A DNA stretch of 64,000 nucleotides from an uncultured beta proteobacterium (lineage in GTDB: Bacteria; Pseudomonadota; Gammaproteobacteria; Burkholderiales; SG8-39): contig CAIOLO010000044.1 of NCBI GenBank assembly GCA_903859155.1, positions 1-64,000 on the forward strand, written 5' to 3'. Shown piece by piece: positions 45,034 to 52,251 of the stretch. A program made the position numbers and the translations under genes. Each line of letters begins with the position of its first letter. The first letter of the stretch is position 1. Below the pieces are notes generated by a model that saw only the letters and a program-made list of their open reading frames with translations, made no database searches and was not told the origin of the DNA.

Positions 45034-45220
45034 GGCCTTCCCTTCGCTGCTGAGTCTGGCTTTATAGCACCTGGTGCGGACTCGGGCAATGCGGCCGGGT
45101 AGTTCTGTGCCGGCGTAGCAAAAGGAAAGCACAGTGCCGACGTTGGTACCTGACGTTACACTTACCGGCAATTGCCACGCGTTTGGCGCGGCTTCAGAAA
45201 ACATCAACCGGAGCAAAGGT

Positions 45221-46192
45221 ATGAAACTCTTCACTGGCACCAAACTTCCAGCTCTGTTGTTTGCCCTCCTTGCAATCGCCCCGGCCGTGCAGGCGCAGTC
45301 CTACCCCGCCAAGCCGGTGCGCCTGATCCTCACTTATTCGGGAGGCATCGACGCGATTGCGCGCCTGATCGCTGTGCGCATGACCGAGGGACTCGGCCAG
45401 CCGGTGGTGGTCGAGGGCCAGGCGGGCGCGGGTGGCGCCATCGGCGCGAGCATGGTCGCCAAGGCGGCACCGGACGGATACACCATTCTTTCCAGCACCG
45501 GCAGCACACAGATACAGCGCGGCTTTCTCATCAAGAACGTGCCCTACGATGCGGTCAAGGACTTCACCCCGATCACGCTCTCCTGGGAAACCTTGATCGT
45601 GGTCGGCGCGACCAATAGCGCGCCATTCACCACCTTCCGTGACATGATCGCCTATGCCAAAGCCAATCCCGGAAAAATCTCCTATGGCACTTCGGGACTG
45701 GGAACCAGCCATCACCTGGCGCTGGAGCAGATCAATCTCCTGGCGGGCACCAACATCGTGCACATCCCCTACAAGGGCGGCGACCAGGTGATCACCGATG
45801 TCATCGCCGGACGCATCCAGGCTTCCTCCTCACCCCTGTTCAGCCTGGAGCCCAGTGTGAGCAGCGGCAAGGCCAGGTACCTGGCGTTCGTCAACACCAA
45901 ACGTTTCGAGGGGGCACCCGGGGTGCCCACGGTGCGCGAGACCCTGCCCGGATTCGAGGCGCCGCCGCTGTGGTCGGGCTTTTTCGGGCCGGCCAATCTG
46001 CCGCCCGCCATCGTCAAGCGACTGCACGCTGAAATTACCAGGGTCGTCGGCACCACCGAAGTGAAGGCCCGCCTGTTTGCAGGCGGCCTGCAGCTGGTGA
46101 ACAGCTCCCCCGAAGAACTCGCGCAGGCAATCAAGCGGGATATCCAGACCGTGGCGGGCATTGTCAAGCGGGCGAAAATTCAGCCGGAGTAA
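45221..46192 (+). CDS. Bug/TctC-family periplasmic solute receptor
   Basis: A 323-residue orphan receptor. The signal peptide ends AVQAQ before SYPAKPVRLILTYSGG. It shares the unusual GG-x-(D/E)-x-(I/L/V)-AR loop with the receptor at 41753, suggesting related ligands. Other marks are PDGYTIL, TSHHLALEQ and HIPYKGGDQ. It is transcribed away from the M24 operon across a 187-base gap that should hold both promoters. Hairpins follow the gene. The start at 45221 has an AAAGG ribosome site. Confidence 0.9.
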   Translation: MKLFTGTKLPALLFALLAIAPAVQAQSYPAKPVRLILTYSGGIDAIARLIAVRMTEGLGQPVVVEGQAGAGGAIGASMVAKAAPDGYTILSSTGSTQIQRGFLIKNVPYDAVKDFTPITLSWETLIVVGATNSAPFTTFRDMIAYAKANPGKISYGTSGLGTSHHLALEQINLLAGTNIVHIPYKGGDQVITDVIAGRIQASSSPLFSLEPSVSSGKARYLAFVNTKRFEGAPGVPTVRETLPGFEAPPLWSGFFGPANLPPAIVKRLHAEITRVVGTTEVKARLFAGGLQLVNSSPEELAQAIKRDIQTVAGIVKRAKIQPE

Positions 46193-46226
46193 ATGGCCGG
46201 CATCGAAAACACCAGGCCGACCCGAT

Positions 46227-46280
46227 TGGACATCACGACTTGTGATGTCCAGAATGGCCGCATAAAAGTTTAACTTTTAT
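46227..46280. terminator. Two hairpins between convergent receptor genes
   Basis: First hairpin: 10-bp perfect stem (46227-46236 with 46242-46251, 5-base loop). Second: ATAAAAGT-TTA-ACTTTTAT at 46262-46280, an 8-bp AT-rich stem whose right arm supplies a T-rich stretch on the plus strand. The gap separates two convergent Bug genes, so bidirectional termination is the likely role. Confidence 0.55.
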
Positions 46281-46347
46281 TTAAACAACACAAGCATCCG
46301 CGTATGTTTCCAGCCAGTTAAGTTGTCAGTTACAACAATAAAAACAG

Positions 46348-47337
46348 TTATTCCGGTTTGATTCCAGCCAGCTTGGCGGCCCTGCCGAACACCTCGAATG
46401 CCTGCTTGTAGGCCACCGCGAATTCCTCGGGCGTGTTGCCCACGCCGGTGTGCATGTTGGTCTCCAGCCAGTTGCGCGCCTCCGGGGTTTTCAAGGATGC
46501 GGCGAGCTCGCGATACAGGCGCACGACAATCGGCCGCGGCAGAGCCGGCTGGCCGAACAGCGCATACCAGGACGCGGGCTTCTGAAACGAAGGCACGGTT
46601 TCGGTGAAGGTCTCCAGGTCCGGCGCACCGGGATAGCGTTTGGGTTCGAGCAGCGCGAGGATCCTGATCTTGCCGGCCTTCTCCAGCGGCCGTGCCGTAC
46701 CCAGCGTCAGGAGGGTCATTTCGATGCGCCCGCCGAACAAGTCGTTGAGCGCCTGCGGCGGCCCCTTGTAGGGCACGTGCACGATATCGAGACCCGCAGC
46801 CTGTTTTATCAATTCACCGGTGAAATGAAAAAACGAACCGATGCCCGGCGAGCCGTAAGACATCTTGCCCGGATTGCGCTTCACATGATCGACGAATTCC
46901 CTGACATTCGTCACCGGCACCTGCGGGTTGAGCAGCAGCACCGTCACCGGCTCGGCGGCGATACTGATGGGCAACAATTCCCTGGCCGGGTCGATGGGCA
47001 GGGTCTTGGAGATAAACACGCTGGTCACCACCTGGCTGGGCGTGGCCCAGAGCAGGGTGTAGCCGTCGGGCGCGGCGTGCGCCACAAGTTCGGCGCCGAT
47101 CATGCCGTTGGCGCCGGCGCGGTTCTCGCCTATGACGGGGTAGCCCATGGCCTCGCCCATTTTGGTGCCGACCAGGCGCCCGAAGAGTTCGAACGACGAT
47201 CCGGGAAGCGTCGGCAGAATCAAGCGGATGGGTTTGGCCGGATAGTCCTGTGCATGGGCGGGAAGCTGCGCGATCCCCAGGCCGATGCCCGCGGCGCAAT
47301 ACAGCGCGCCCTTGATGAACTGCCGAAACGGATTCAT
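46348..47337 (-). CDS. Bug/TctC-family periplasmic solute receptor
   Basis: A 329-residue orphan receptor with a signal peptide ending PAHAQ before DYPAKPIRLILPTLPG. Marks are PDGYTLLWAT, GSFFHFTGELIKQ and HVPYKGPPQAL. It is 29 bases downstream of a glutathione S-transferase gene on the same strand, so the two may be cotranscribed. The ligand is unknown. The first ATG at 47337 is preceded by AGGAG and begins the basic n-region of the signal peptide. Confidence 0.9.
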   Translation of the reverse strand: MNPFRQFIKGALYCAAGIGLGIAQLPAHAQDYPAKPIRLILPTLPGSSFELFGRLVGTKMGEAMGYPVIGENRAGANGMIGAELVAHAAPDGYTLLWATPSQVVTSVFISKTLPIDPARELLPISIAAEPVTVLLLNPQVPVTNVREFVDHVKRNPGKMSYGSPGIGSFFHFTGELIKQAAGLDIVHVPYKGPPQALNDLFGGRIEMTLLTLGTARPLEKAGKIRILALLEPKRYPGAPDLETFTETVPSFQKPASWYALFGQPALPRPIVVRLYRELAASLKTPEARNWLETNMHTGVGNTPEEFAVAYKQAFEVFGRAAKLAGIKPE

Positions 47338-47366
47338 GACTGTCTCCTTCTTTTAATTCCGGGATA

Positions 47367-48152
47367 TTAGAGCGATCCGATGATCCGGCTCACCAGCGGC
47401 CAGGGATCGAAGTCCAGTTTCCTGAATGGTGCCCAGTCGTCTGCACCCATGCGCTGGAATACTGCCTTATCGACGCATTCCTGCTTGTGCATGCGCTGGT
47501 ACCAGGCGGCGACGCCCGGACGCTTGTCCCACATGCGCGAAAGACCGATCAGGTCGAGGCGGATCACATAGGGAATCACGGCGATATCGGCAAGCGACAG
47601 GCGCTCTCCGGCAAGATAGGACCAGCGACCGGTCGATTCCTCTATCCAGTCGAGCAGCTTTTCGTGGAATTCGATCGATTCCACCACGTACTTGGAGTCC
47701 ATGCCAAGCTTCACCACGTCGCGTTTGTACTCGGAGCGTTTTTTGCTCGGGGCCTTGGCGAAATAGGCTTCCCGCTCGGCCTCGCTCTTGTCCGCCAGGT
47801 TCGGCCGGAACACGGTGGCAAAGCTGATGACGGTGCAGTAGTTGTGCACGTATTCGTCGATCAGCTTGTTGAACAGGCGCACCCTGGCTCGCTGGTGGAA
47901 CTCGGCAGGCATCAGTGCGGGCTCGGGATATTTTTCATCGAGGTAATAGAGAATCACCGATGACTCGATTACCGGCACCGCGTCATCCACCAGTGTCGGC
48001 ACCACCGCGTTGGCATTGAGTTTCAGATATTCGGGCGTGAACAATTGGTCGCCCGAGATGTTGTGCTCCCTGGCCTGCAAGCCTTTCGCGGCCAGCGCAA
48101 TGCGCACTTTCTGCGCGCAGACCGAATTGACACTGTGATATAGCTCAAGCAT
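47367..48152 (-). CDS. Glutathione S-transferase-family protein
   Basis: A 261-residue cytoplasmic GST-like enzyme. The N-terminal thioredoxin-fold domain (LELYHSVNSVCAQKVRIAL) has Ser and Cys at the usual active-site turn, and VVPTLVDD plus VIESSVILYYLDE are the glutathione-binding cis-Pro and ESxxI elements. The C-terminal helical domain carries the N-capping box LSLADIAVIPYV. The start at 48152 is set by the first strand. It is divergent from the selenoprotein candidate, only 146 bases away, and precedes a Bug receptor gene. Such GSTs often dechlorinate or isomerise aromatic intermediates, but the substrate is unknown. Confidence 0.88.
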   Translation of the reverse strand: MLELYHSVNSVCAQKVRIALAAKGLQAREHNISGDQLFTPEYLKLNANAVVPTLVDDAVPVIESSVILYYLDEKYPEPALMPAEFHQRARVRLFNKLIDEYVHNYCTVISFATVFRPNLADKSEAEREAYFAKAPSKKRSEYKRDVVKLGMDSKYVVESIEFHEKLLDWIEESTGRWSYLAGERLSLADIAVIPYVIRLDLIGLSRMWDKRPGVAAWYQRMHKQECVDKAVFQRMGADDWAPFRKLDFDPWPLVSRIIGSL

Positions 48153-48298
48153 GGTGGCTCCTGTTTGCGGATGGTCGGCAGTGTGCATTAACGCGGGCAT
48201 TTTCGCCAAACGACCGGGGCCGGATCAGACCCGACGCGGCGGCCAGCAGCGGAATCGGCGTAGAATTCCTGCGTCACCCCAACAGAAAGCCTGCTGCA

Positions 48299-48925
48299 AT
48301 GGCTGATCCTATCGTCGTCAACGTCTTCTCCGATTACGTTTGACCCTGGTGCTACCTCAGTACCGTGCGTATTGAGAAACTGAAAGCAAACTACGACATC
48401 GTCGTCAACCTGGTGCATTTTCCGCTGCACGCCGACACGCCCGCCGAGGGCGTCTCCCTGGATGTATTGTTCCCCGGCAGCAAGGCCGCCGAACGCGCCG
48501 CCAGGCAGGAGCGCATGATGGGCCTGATGGAGGCCGAAGGCCTGCCCTACGGCGAGCGCACCCACACCTACAACAGCCGCCTGGCGCAGGAACTGGGCAA
48601 ATGGGCCGATACCCAGGAGGGCGGCGCGGCCTTGCACGATGCGATTTACAAGGCCTATTTCGTCGAAGGCAAAAACATCGGCGACCTGGAAACCCTGGTA
48701 GCACTGGCGCAATCGGCAGGCCTCTCCGCCGAGGCGGCGCGTAAGGTGCTCAGCGAGCGCAGCTTCAAGGATGCGATAGACGAGGACTGGTCATCGTCGC
48801 GCAAGGCGGGTGTCACCGGAGTGCCCACCTTTGCCGCCGGCGGCTACGGTGTGGTGGGCGCGCAACCCTACGAGGTGCTGGAAGAACTCATGACGACGGC
48901 GGGGGCGAAGCCGCGGAATGTCTGA
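48299..48925 (+). CDS. Candidate selenoprotein: DsbA/FrnE-like oxidoreductase with in-frame UGA (UPWC)
   Basis: A 208-residue thioredoxin-fold protein of the DsbA/FrnE (2-hydroxychromene-2-carboxylate isomerase-like) group, if the UGA at 48341-48343 (codon 15) is read as selenocysteine. The N-terminus reads VVNVFSDYV-U-PWCYL, exactly where FrnE-type proteins have CPWC, and the second Cys is kept. Downstream landmarks HFPLHADTP and the cis-Pro loop GVTGVPTF are intact, with no other stop. A hairpin fitting a bacterial SECIS follows 12 bases after the UGA. Ignoring the UGA would leave a GTG start at 48365 and a protein without its active site. No sel genes are in the window. The alternative is a point nonsense mutation or sequencing error (TGC or TGT to TGA). 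Confidence 0.72.
48356..48376 (+). promoter_or_regulatory. Candidate bacterial SECIS element
   Basis: CTCAGTAC (48356-48363) pairs with GTATTGAG (48369-48376) over 8 bp with one G-U wobble, leaving the loop CGTGC. The loop starts 20 bases after the UGA and has G at its second position. These features fit the usual bSECIS model: apical loop about 16-37 bases from the UGA, a stem of at least 4 bp, and a G within the first two loop bases. Confidence 0.6.
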
Positions 48926-48960
48926 CGATTTTGCCGGTTTTGGGGTGATTACTGTCGCAA

Positions 48961-49374
48961 CTATTTCATAGGTAGATATTTCATCAGACGTACCAGGTCT
49001 CGGTCGAAGCTGAAGACTTTCCAGCCATTTTCGTGCGCAGTAGCGGCAACCAGCGCGTCCACGAAGTCCACGTTCTGGTCCCGATAAAGCGTCAACGCTC
49101 GGCGCACAGCCCCAGATTCAGTTGCGACACCACGGTAATCGAGCAAACCCAGAAGTTTGTTCGCGACATCCTCTCGCGTGATCGTATAGACGCGCGTCAG
49201 CACATATACACACTCGGCGAAGACGGCAGCGGGAGTATAGGCTGTCGCCGACCCTTCTCGGACCGGCTCGAAAAATGCCTTGGCGCGCTCGAAATGCGCT
49301 CTCTCGTTTCCGAGCAGCAGGGAAACGATGACGTTTGCGTCAACGACGCTTGTGCTTTTGTCTGACAACGGCAT
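48961..49374 (-). CDS. vapC: PIN-domain toxin (VapC-like)
   Basis: A 137-residue PIN-domain ribonuclease, the toxin of a type II toxin-antitoxin pair. Acidic active-site positions are visible in VVDANVIVSLL, FAECVYVLTR, DFVDALVAA and FSFDRDLVR. VapC-type toxins cut tRNA or rRNA when free of antitoxin. The start at 49374 lies inside the antitoxin gene (35-base overlap), which ties their translation. The pair sits alone between the selenoprotein candidate and a Bug receptor gene. Confidence 0.85.
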   Translation of the reverse strand: MPLSDKSTSVVDANVIVSLLLGNERAHFERAKAFFEPVREGSATAYTPAAVFAECVYVLTRVYTITREDVANKLLGLLDYRGVATESGAVRRALTLYRDQNVDFVDALVAATAHENGWKVFSFDRDLVRLMKYLPMK

Positions 49375-49585
49375 CCCAGGCCCGCTCACGTGCAAGCGCA
49401 TAGGGCACCGGTTTTCTAGCGTAGTGCGCCAGACTTCCAGCCAGATCCGCTACCGGCTCGATACTGACTTTGCCGGCGTCGCAAACTATCCGGACAAAAT
49501 CCGTACCGAGTACTTCACGAACCTCGCGCGGCAGCGTGATCTGTCCCTTGCTGGAAACTTTAGTGCTCTTTACCACGGCACTCAT
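49340..49585 (-). CDS. AbrB/SpoVT-domain antitoxin
   Basis: An 81-residue antitoxin with an AbrB-type swapped-hairpin DNA-binding domain: STKVSSKGQITLPREVREVLG is the family signature at about residues 7-27. The C-terminal half should wrap the PIN toxin. It lies first in the pair, as usual for antitoxins, and would repress its own promoter. An A/T-rich stretch with a possible AAGG ribosome site precedes the ATG. Confidence 0.88.
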   Translation of the reverse strand: MSAVVKSTKVSSKGQITLPREVREVLGTDFVRIVCDAGKVSIEPVADLAGSLAHYARKPVPYALARERAWDAVVRQKHKRR

Positions 49586-49666
49586 GCTTTACACCTTGGT
49601 TATTCCTTTACATTTTAACGTAGAACGGCCGATCAAGGGATGCCTGCTTGCCCGACAAGACACGCG

Positions 49667-50641
49667 CTAATCGATCTTGATGCCCAGGCCGCGCACCAGC
49701 TTGCCGTAGCGTTCATGCTCGCTGAGGATGAACTGGCCGAAGGCCTCGCGCGTGGTGATCCAGGATTCCGCGCCGCCGACACTGCTGATTCTTTCCGCCA
49801 CTTCCTTGTTGGCAAGTGCGCTGTTGATTTCATTGTGCAGCCGCGCGACGATGGGCTCGGGCGTGCCCGCCGGTCCCCAGATGCCCAGCCAGTTGTTGAA
49901 CGAAACCCCCGGGAAGAACTCGCCTATGGTCGGAACGTCCGCCAGGTAGGTCAGGCGGTTCTTGCCTGAGACGGCGACCGCGCGCAGCTTGCCGGCCTTG
50001 ATCTGCGGCGCTGCGGATGTGCCCGCCACAACCACGGGGACGTCTCCCGCAATCGCCGCGATCACCGCGGGCGTGCCGCTCTTGTAGGGCACGTGGGTAA
50101 GCTCGATCCCCGCCTGCTGCTTGATGGCCTCCATGGTCAGATGATGGATGCTGGCGTTGCCGCCGGATGCGAAATTGAGCGGCGGATTGGCGCGCTTCGC
50201 ATAATCGAGAAACTCCTTGAAAGTCTTCACGGGCACAGAAGGATGCACCGAGACCACCACCTGGCTGATGGTGGTGCTCGCAATCGGCACGATGTCCTTG
50301 AGCGTGTCGAAAGGCATCTTGGCATAGACGTGCGGATTGATCGCCACCAGGCTGTCCGCGCCGTACAGGATAGTGTAGCCGTCGGGCGGCGCCTTGGCGA
50401 CGTATTCTCCGGCAATGTTGCCGTTGGACCCTACACGGTTCTCGACGACGACCTGTTGCCCCAGTCTCTCCGACATTGCGGGCGCGATCACCCGGGCGCC
50501 GATATCGGGCGCCCCGCCGGGTGCGATCAGCACGATCAGACGGATAGGTTTCACCGGGTAGGACTGCGCTTGCGCGTAAGAGTGCAGAAACGCGAACGCG
50601 ACCGGCGCGAACGCGAGAACCAGCTTGCTGACAGAATGCAT
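49667..50641 (-). CDS. Bug/TctC-family periplasmic solute receptor
   Basis: A 324-residue orphan receptor. The signal peptide ends YAQAQ before SYPVKPIRLIVLIAPGG. Marks are PDGYTILYG, GGNASIHHLTMEAIKQ and HVPYKSGTP. ATG at 50641 is the start; an in-frame TTG four codons earlier is less likely. It is followed on the same strand by the toxin-antitoxin pair, separated by about 80 bases. Upstream lies another Bug gene in the same direction, 205 bases away. Confidence 0.9.
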   Translation of the reverse strand: MHSVSKLVLAFAPVAFAFLHSYAQAQSYPVKPIRLIVLIAPGGAPDIGARVIAPAMSERLGQQVVVENRVGSNGNIAGEYVAKAPPDGYTILYGADSLVAINPHVYAKMPFDTLKDIVPIASTTISQVVVSVHPSVPVKTFKEFLDYAKRANPPLNFASGGNASIHHLTMEAIKQQAGIELTHVPYKSGTPAVIAAIAGDVPVVVAGTSAAPQIKAGKLRAVAVSGKNRLTYLADVPTIGEFFPGVSFNNWLGIWGPAGTPEPIVARLHNEINSALANKEVAERISSVGGAESWITTREAFGQFILSEHERYGKLVRGLGIKID

Positions 50642-50846
50642 GAGCGCTCCCAAATGAACAGAACCGAAGCATCCTGCGCGCCATCCGCGGCCGATGTCAA
50701 GCCTCCGGAATCATGCAGCCATGCACGGCCACCGATACGGCCGCATTGGAAATACGGAAATCGAACCATGAACCAACATCAGGTTGCTTCAAGTTTCTTG
50801 CAGGCGCTGGGTTGAACCCCTGACCCGCAACAGCCCTTCGATGGGC

Positions 50847-51821
50847 TCAGTCGGCGCTCGCGCCACTGGCCTTGACGACCAGCTCATAGCGGGCGAGTTC
50901 GGCTTTCATGAATGCGCCGAACTGCTCGGGCGTGGTGGGAACCGGTTCGGCCATCAGTGCCGCAAAACGCGTCTTCGTCTCCGCGGCATTGAGTGCCGCG
51001 ACGAATGCCTGATTGAGCCGCGCGACCACGCCGGCAGGCGTTGCGGCAGGCGCCACCAGGCCCCACCATGTATCGATCTCGAAACCCTTCAGGGTCTCGG
51101 CCACTGCCGGGATATCGGGCAGCACCGCTGAACGCCTCGCAGTGGTGACCGCCAGCGCTCGCAGTTTGCCGGCGTGGATATTGGGTGCCGCGGTGGCGAG
51201 ATTGTCGAAATTGAAATGCACCTGCCCGCCCAGGAGCGCCAACTGCGCGGGTGCGCCGCCATTGTAGGGAATATGCACGGCGTAAATGCCGGCAGCCTTC
51301 TTGAACATCTCGCCGGCCAGATGGCCGGCGCTGCCGTTGCCGCCGGAACCGTAATCCAGCTTGGCCGGATTGGCACTTGCAAACCGGATCAGGTCGGCCA
51401 CGTTGCCGATGCCGTAGCGGCGCGCGGTCTCGATGTTCATCACCAGCACATTGGGCACGCGGACCACCTGCGTGATCGGCGCGAAATCCCTGGCCGCGTC
51501 AAAGGGCATCCTGGCGAACAACCAGGGATTGATGGCGTGGGTGGCCACCGCGCTCACTCCGATGGTGGCACCGTCGGGCGCGGCCTTGGCGACCAGGTCC
51601 GCACCGATGTTGCCGCCGCCCCCGGGTCGGTTGTCGACGACCACCACCCCGAGCGAATTCCTGACGCCCTCGGCCAGCACTCTGACGGTGACATCGATCG
51701 GCCCGCCCGCCGCATAGGGAACGATCAGGCGGATGGGCTTGCCCGCGCCCTGCGCCAGCGCGGCGCCGGCCACGCCGCAGAGAACCTGCGCGGCGACAAG
51801 ACAAACAATGAATTTCGGCAC
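50847..51821 (-). CDS. Bug/TctC-family periplasmic solute receptor (GTG start)
   Basis: A 324-residue orphan receptor. No ATG precedes the signal peptide; the GTG at 51821 directly before PKFIVCLVAAQVLCG is taken as the start. The signal ends ALAQ and the mature part begins GAGKPIRLIVPYAAGGP, lacking the usual Tyr-Pro. PDGATIG, SAGHLAGEMFKKA and HIPYNGGAP are family marks. It is 23 bases downstream of an FmdB-type zinc-ribbon gene on the same strand, suggesting cotranscription. Confidence 0.85.
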   Translation of the reverse strand: MPKFIVCLVAAQVLCGVAGAALAQGAGKPIRLIVPYAAGGPIDVTVRVLAEGVRNSLGVVVVDNRPGGGGNIGADLVAKAAPDGATIGVSAVATHAINPWLFARMPFDAARDFAPITQVVRVPNVLVMNIETARRYGIGNVADLIRFASANPAKLDYGSGGNGSAGHLAGEMFKKAAGIYAVHIPYNGGAPAQLALLGGQVHFNFDNLATAAPNIHAGKLRALAVTTARRSAVLPDIPAVAETLKGFEIDTWWGLVAPAATPAGVVARLNQAFVAALNAAETKTRFAALMAEPVPTTPEQFGAFMKAELARYELVVKASGASAD

Positions 51822-51844
51822 GGACACCCGCGACGACGGGTGAA

Positions 51845-52066
51845 TTATCGGCAGGCGCAATTGCCGCCGCAGCAGCTTTGCAGACTGTTGCCGGTGCTCG
51901 CCGCGCTGGGACTGGTAAACATGCCGTGCAGGGCCGGCACGGTAAGTGTCACCCGCGGCGAGGCCGCCGCACACTTCGGGCAGGGCTGGGGGTCGCGAAA
52001 CTGCGCCAGCGGCCGGATCGCAGTGAAACCGCCGCAGCTGGCGCACTCGTATTCGTAGGTTGGCAT
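51845..52066 (-). CDS. FmdB-family zinc-ribbon protein
   Basis: A 73-residue protein with MPTYEYECASCG and PCPKCAA, a two-knuckle zinc ribbon typical of FmdB-type regulators that often sit with amidase or formamidase genes. A Cys-rich tail (SCCGGNCACR) is extra. The start at 52066 is exact, since the family begins at MPTYEY. It precedes a Bug receptor gene; no amidase lies next to it, although M24 and hydantoinase-type genes are within 10 kb. Regulation of the receptor is possible but unproven. Confidence 0.88.
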   Translation of the reverse strand: MPTYEYECASCGGFTAIRPLAQFRDPQPCPKCAAASPRVTLTVPALHGMFTSPSAASTGNSLQSCCGGNCACR

Positions 52067-52251
52067 GGTGTTGGAGAGCCTGTTCCGGAATTTTCGCTTT
52101 GGACGGCGCAAATGATACCAAGGTTCCGGCCTCGCCCCGGTTTGACACCCGCTTTCCGGTGTTATCGGCCCGGGAAAGGACCACTTGATTGCCGCTGCAT
52201 AAACGTTTCTAATCGGGTGCGCGCAACACCACATGGAAGAAAAAAAACACG

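Follow-up and report, generated by a model that had tools for sequence, protein, structure and literature searches.

The hairpin at positions 48356-48376 of the window (the whole 64,000-nucleotide stretch of DNA analyzed here) is very probably a real bacterial SECIS element (bSECIS), with the UGA codon upstream of it read as selenocysteine (Sec) in an enzyme of the FrnE/DsbA type. Taken alone, the hairpin would be weak evidence for such an element; the comparison with orthologs, in which the hairpin accompanies the UGA and is lost or decayed where the codon encodes Cys, is decisive.

Geometry of the hairpin and the gene that carries it

The original prediction described an 8-bp stem with one G-U pair, closed by a 5-base loop (CGTGC), with the stem beginning 12 nt and the loop 20 nt after the UGA and with a G at loop position 2, and direct reading of the sequence agrees with this description in every particular (Table 1). 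The published bSECIS model asks for an apical loop of 3-9 nt, an upper stem of 4-16 bp, a distance of 16-37 nt from the UGA to the loop and a G at loop position 1 or 2, the next base commonly being G or U. With its loop of 5 nt, its stem of 8 bp (7 bp of them conserved) and its distance of 20 nt, the window element lies within all of these limits, and the fit to the model that had been proposed for it stands; the loop G is invariant and the base that follows it is U or G in 27/27 orthologs with TGA at the same codon. Folding of the downstream region also gives the hairpin as its centroid structure (-9.0 kcal/mol), at an energy that is unremarkable compared with shuffled sequences (z-score of -1.39; an equally good fold arises in 16 of 200 shuffles). 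Within the window, bSECIS-like stems of at least 8 bp lie downstream of 67 of the 1687 TGAs (4%) and stems of at least 7 bp downstream of 155 (9%). No match to the region was found in Rfam, even at an E value of 10, generic bSECIS elements being poorly covered there. A covariance model of the element found only this site in the 5.26-Mb genome, and a search of viral contigs for the 19-nt core gave no exact match.

Table 1. Features of the predicted selenoprotein gene and its hairpin in the window
Feature	Position	Strand	Remarks
FrnE/DsbA-like oxidoreductase gene, predicted to contain Sec	48299..48925	+	208 residues; supported by PF01323, 5cnw, same-TGA orthologs and dN/dS
In-frame UGA, codon 15, predicted selenocysteine	48341..48343	+	Opens the U-P-W-C active-site motif
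Codon 16, CCC, adjoining the UGA on its 3' side	48344..48346	+	CCC in 25/27 Sec orthologs
Codon 18, predicted resolving Cys in UPWC	48350..48352	+	Cys in all homologs
bSECIS stem, 5' arm (putative), CTCAGTAC	48356..48363	+	
bSECIS apical loop (putative), CGTGC	48364..48368	+	GU at loop positions 2-3
bSECIS stem, 3' arm (putative), GTATTGAG	48369..48376	+	GTATTGA invariant in all Sec orthologs
cis-Proline codon (TGVPTF)	48824..48826	+	From sequence; Pro column conserved

The gene frame runs from an ATG at 48299 to a TGA stop at 48923-48925 and, with the internal TGA translated as Sec, its product begins MADPIVVNVFSDYV-U-PWCYLSTVRIEKL. This product matches the DSBA domain (PF01323, E value of 2.8e-33), and the nearest relative of known structure is the FrnE of Deinococcus radiodurans (PDB 5cnw, E value of 3.7e-24). 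The cis-proline presumably stands opposite the active site, as is expected in DsbA/thioredoxin folds. No other CxxC or CxxxxC motif was found in the translation, including the C-terminal CxxxxC of the FrnE subfamily. No NCBIfam model covers the gene, the best being NF041057 (Rcas_1661 thioredoxin-like selenolipoprotein), which reaches 42 bits versus a cut-off of 190 and matches the C-terminal part of the protein only. In comparisons with congeneric orthologs, the part of the window gene that follows the hairpin shows a dN/dS of 0.06-0.15. Purifying selection is also seen in the 13 codons preceding the UGA when these are compared with the nearest relative, L107 (pN of 0.00, pS of 0.43), and the stretch upstream of the UGA is therefore most likely translated; orthologs with the same TGA align from codon 1.

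Orthologs with UGA or Cys at codon 15

A search in which each GTDB species was represented by one genome yielded 80 loci, with TGA at codon 15 in seven and TGC or TGT in 73, the UGA standing where the non-TGA homologs have the first Cys of the CxxC motif. Whole-genome searches of the order and the family added many more TGA orthologs, giving a set of 27 sequences (window included, two duplicates removed) from betaproteobacteria, alphaproteobacteria and Desulfobacterales. A sample of 398 genomes of the phylum contained no further ortholog at an E value of 1e-40, and the gene is therefore patchy; a plasmid collection gave distant relatives only, at less than 60% identity. Outside the assembly of the window, the nearest ortholog, at 90% identity, comes from a MAG, L018, labeled Bordetella parapertussis, a label that looks doubtful because there is an apparently identical match in a draft genome of the window's genus (L107).

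All 27 TGA orthologs have a bSECIS-like stem with its loop 20-21 nt after the UGA. The loop is CGTGC in 24 of them, CGGGC in two (L051 and L112) and GGTGC in one (L024). Among 66 Cys orthologs, any bSECIS-like stem was found in four, and a stem in the register of the window in none. The refutation set for the original prediction, that Cys orthologs keep the hairpin equally well, thus failed when it was tried (4/66 versus 27/27).

The same orthologs bear on the possibility that the UGA does terminate translation or arose by a recent nonsense mutation, which would leave either a pseudogene or a protein that starts at GTG 48365. The standard code does yield such a frame, of 186 residues, in which the gene is truncated at the internal GTG and the active site is lost, and readthrough is a prediction from sequence. 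However, 27 non-redundant orthologs of three classes share the TGA at this codon, the codons before it are under a purifying selection that an untranslated stretch would not show, and the hairpin downstream is frozen. A stop at this codon is consequently very improbable and, with the hairpin in step with the TGA, the earlier view that the UGA is less likely to be a random mutation is borne out.

If the UGA is read as Sec, two Cys lineages look like reversions from Sec to Cys. The first is a Cys copy, L116 (identical to L031), from the same bacterial family as the window, which is nested among 15 betaproteobacterial Sec sequences in one clade (SH-aLRT of 97) and whose hairpin region is fully recoded, reading LASARVAR with other codons. 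The second is a Caenispirillum MAG, L034, which has Cys, yet retains a decayed hairpin at the right place (L034:1015-1041; 22.3 bits, E value of 3e-4) that is likely a relic of a Sec-to-Cys change. Neither SelA nor SelB was found in the genomes of L031 and L034. The loss or decay of the hairpin with Cys is what would be expected if it served no purpose but Sec decoding. Trait columns were excluded from the tree, which is a quick search with many weak forks, and the number and direction of the Sec/Cys switches are accordingly approximate.

Sequence constraint on the hairpin

In the TGA set, codons 20-25 read CTC AGT ACC GTG CGT ATT almost without exception, and no other of the 165 six-codon windows has a mean pairwise synonymous diversity as low as theirs, 0.012. 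Adding codon 26 raises the diversity to 0.080, compared with 0.436 elsewhere, and none of 100,000 permutations was as low. Cys homologs, by comparison, show synonymous differences at codons 20-25 in 0.5-0.8 of comparable pairs. Minor codons are among those frozen: AGT accounts for 3.6% of Ser, CGT for 5.3% of Arg and ATT for 15% of Ile codons within the same ortholog genes. Judged by its synonymous sites, the hairpin is an RNA-level signal. The CCC at codon 16 has a synonymous diversity of 0.15 in the Sec set versus 0.73 in the Cys set and is possibly part of the decoding context, in which case the surroundings of the UGA would also be selected.

These data also speak to an explanation in which the hairpin reflects only a conserved peptide, LSTVRIE, together with codon usage, the UGA being read through by other means. 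Such a peptide is indeed conserved among the Sec orthologs, and hairpins of similar size follow 4-9% of the TGAs in the window, but the synonymous sites are frozen with rare codons in place, and the Cys copy L116 of the same family has LASARVAR in other codons. Moreover, when the same peptide was recoded synonymously, drawing on the codon usage of the window genes, a comparable stem (at least 7 bp and meeting the model) arose in just 19 of 20,000 recodings. We therefore give this explanation very little credence.

The compensatory changes in Sec homologs that the original prediction proposed to look for are almost absent, the element having been kept as a fixed sequence with little room for covariation. 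Six of the eight pairs never vary, so there are too few changes for the covariation test, and none is significant. Of 12 distinct sequences, 6 lack the outermost pair (48356-48376), and the conserved stem is accordingly 7 bp. In L051, from the Desulfobacterales, A-U replaces G-U and U-A replaces C-G with eight pairs retained, and the outer pair of this sequence is the sole cell with a double change. The support that sequences lend to the element is thus freezing, not covariation. A primary sequence conserved more than its pairing could point to some other RNA function unrelated to Sec, for example a regulatory or protein-binding site, but this is exceedingly improbable, given that the element is present with UGA at codon 15, is lost or decayed with Cys and lies at the distance required for SECIS function.

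For a SECIS, a primary sequence this rigid over a large taxonomic distance is less expected. It might represent a sequence-rigid element of ∼19 nt (UCAGUACCGUGCGUAUUGA) that forms a gene-specific class read by base identity, possibly with the CCC after the UGA as an extension, or a Sec-DsbA cassette that has spread between lineages, the element having stayed nearly unchanged with its gene across classes and phyla. We put this forward tentatively and consider it rather unlikely.

Selenocysteine machinery and known selenoproteins

A complete Sec machinery is encoded in the window's genome (98.7% complete, in 172 contigs), with full-length SelB (363.7 bits), SelA (580 bits) and SelD (428 bits), each of which exceeds its curated cut-off. 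A candidate for tRNA-Sec (60.2 bits, above the gathering score of 47) with a UCA anticodon in the loop CTTCAAA is located ∼2.6 kb from selA; ARAGORN did not call this candidate. Near the tRNA-Sec gene is a phage-type integrase gene (L138:7701-8597, minus strand), which may mark a mobile element inserted there. Beside selA we found a frame with an in-frame TGA at AAUGSC (L138:15630-15632, minus strand; contig C9 of G000, near 77,630), followed, starting 15 nt after the TGA, by a bSECIS-like hairpin of 6 bp (GCGGCC-GGUCG-GGCCGC). The match of this frame to the UGSC (seleno)protein family is weak (NF041046 at 42 bits, below the cut-off; PF24696 just at the cut-off), and we regard it as a probable second selenoprotein of the genome. 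The frame extends well past the UGSC domain. Formate dehydrogenase was rejected as a second selenoprotein, its best match having no internal stop.

In a relative, G288, the TGA-containing dsbA gene comes directly after selA and selB, all three in the same orientation (L141:4476-8456, contig C64). Among genomes holding orthologs, SelA scores over the cut-off in 5 of 7 with TGA versus 11 of 40 with Cys. The genome of L051 has the TGA without SelA, yet SelB is present. Searches for SelB in the TGA genomes G007 and G106 gave no match, which may result from missing sequence in these draft genomes.

By analogy with established bacterial Sec decoding, SelB-GTP-Sec-tRNA(Sec) would bind the hairpin where the mRNA enters the ribosome and, with SelB encoded elsewhere in the genome, Sec would be placed at UGA 48341 in place of termination. 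The predicted product is a cytoplasmic FrnE/DsbA-like thiol-disulfide oxidoreductase, in which the selenolate would be the attacking residue of UPWC and Cys-18 would provide the resolving thiol. SelB binding, the actual insertion of Sec and the enzyme activity are what we infer from sequence. On both sides (45134-52184) the gene is flanked by several others that, by sequence resemblance, look like receptors of tripartite tricarboxylate transporters (TctC/Bug type), and such genes also flank some orthologs. The adjoining small genes (48961-49585, minus strand) resemble, by eye, a VapC-type toxin and an AbrB-type antitoxin, and no match to this pair was found near the other TGA orthologs.

The SECIS of E. 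coli fdhF has a bulged U in its upper stem, which the window hairpin does not. The window element resembles the bacterial SECIS consensus of the fdhF type (PMC13188914, Fig. 2) in its stem of 7-8 bp, its loop of 5 nt, the loop G followed by U and the 20 nt that separate the loop from the UGA, and differs from that consensus in how unusually rigid its primary sequence is across distant taxa. DsbA-like UxxC selenoproteins (COG2761/PF01323) with bSECIS-like hairpins were predicted in a 2005 survey of the Sargasso Sea (PMC1088965), the GOS data include 63 sequences of "DsbA 1" (PMC2398784), and a review table grades the UxxC DsbA-like selenoprotein as "predicted with high confidence" (PMC13188914). 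By its sequence, the window gene is a well-supported new example of these already known selenoproteins. It shares with form 1 of the DsbA-like selenoproteins the DSBA domain, the Sec in first position of UxxC, the bSECIS-like hairpin directly downstream and the widespread Cys homologs, whereas here the gene occurs in a betaproteobacterial family and in alphaproteobacterial and Desulfobacterales MAGs, the subclade being likened to form 1 by published description only. The D. radiodurans FrnE (5cnw; PMC8945050) is likewise a cytoplasmic DsbA-family protein with a motif of the C/U-P-W-C type, the first Cys of which is replaced by the predicted Sec in the window protein. The FrnE of S. roseofulvus also lacks the C-terminal CxxxxC, a motif of many FrnE members but not all, and in Deinococcus FrnE proteins act in oxidative and cadmium stress (PMC8945050).

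Sec-containing FrnE/DsbA proteins would thereby be extended to a betaproteobacterial family, in which they are covered by no curated NCBIfam model. The 27 natural Sec sequences and the matching putative Cys reversions should be useful for establishing which bases SelB reads, and equally for tracing the replacement of Sec by Cys in a genome.
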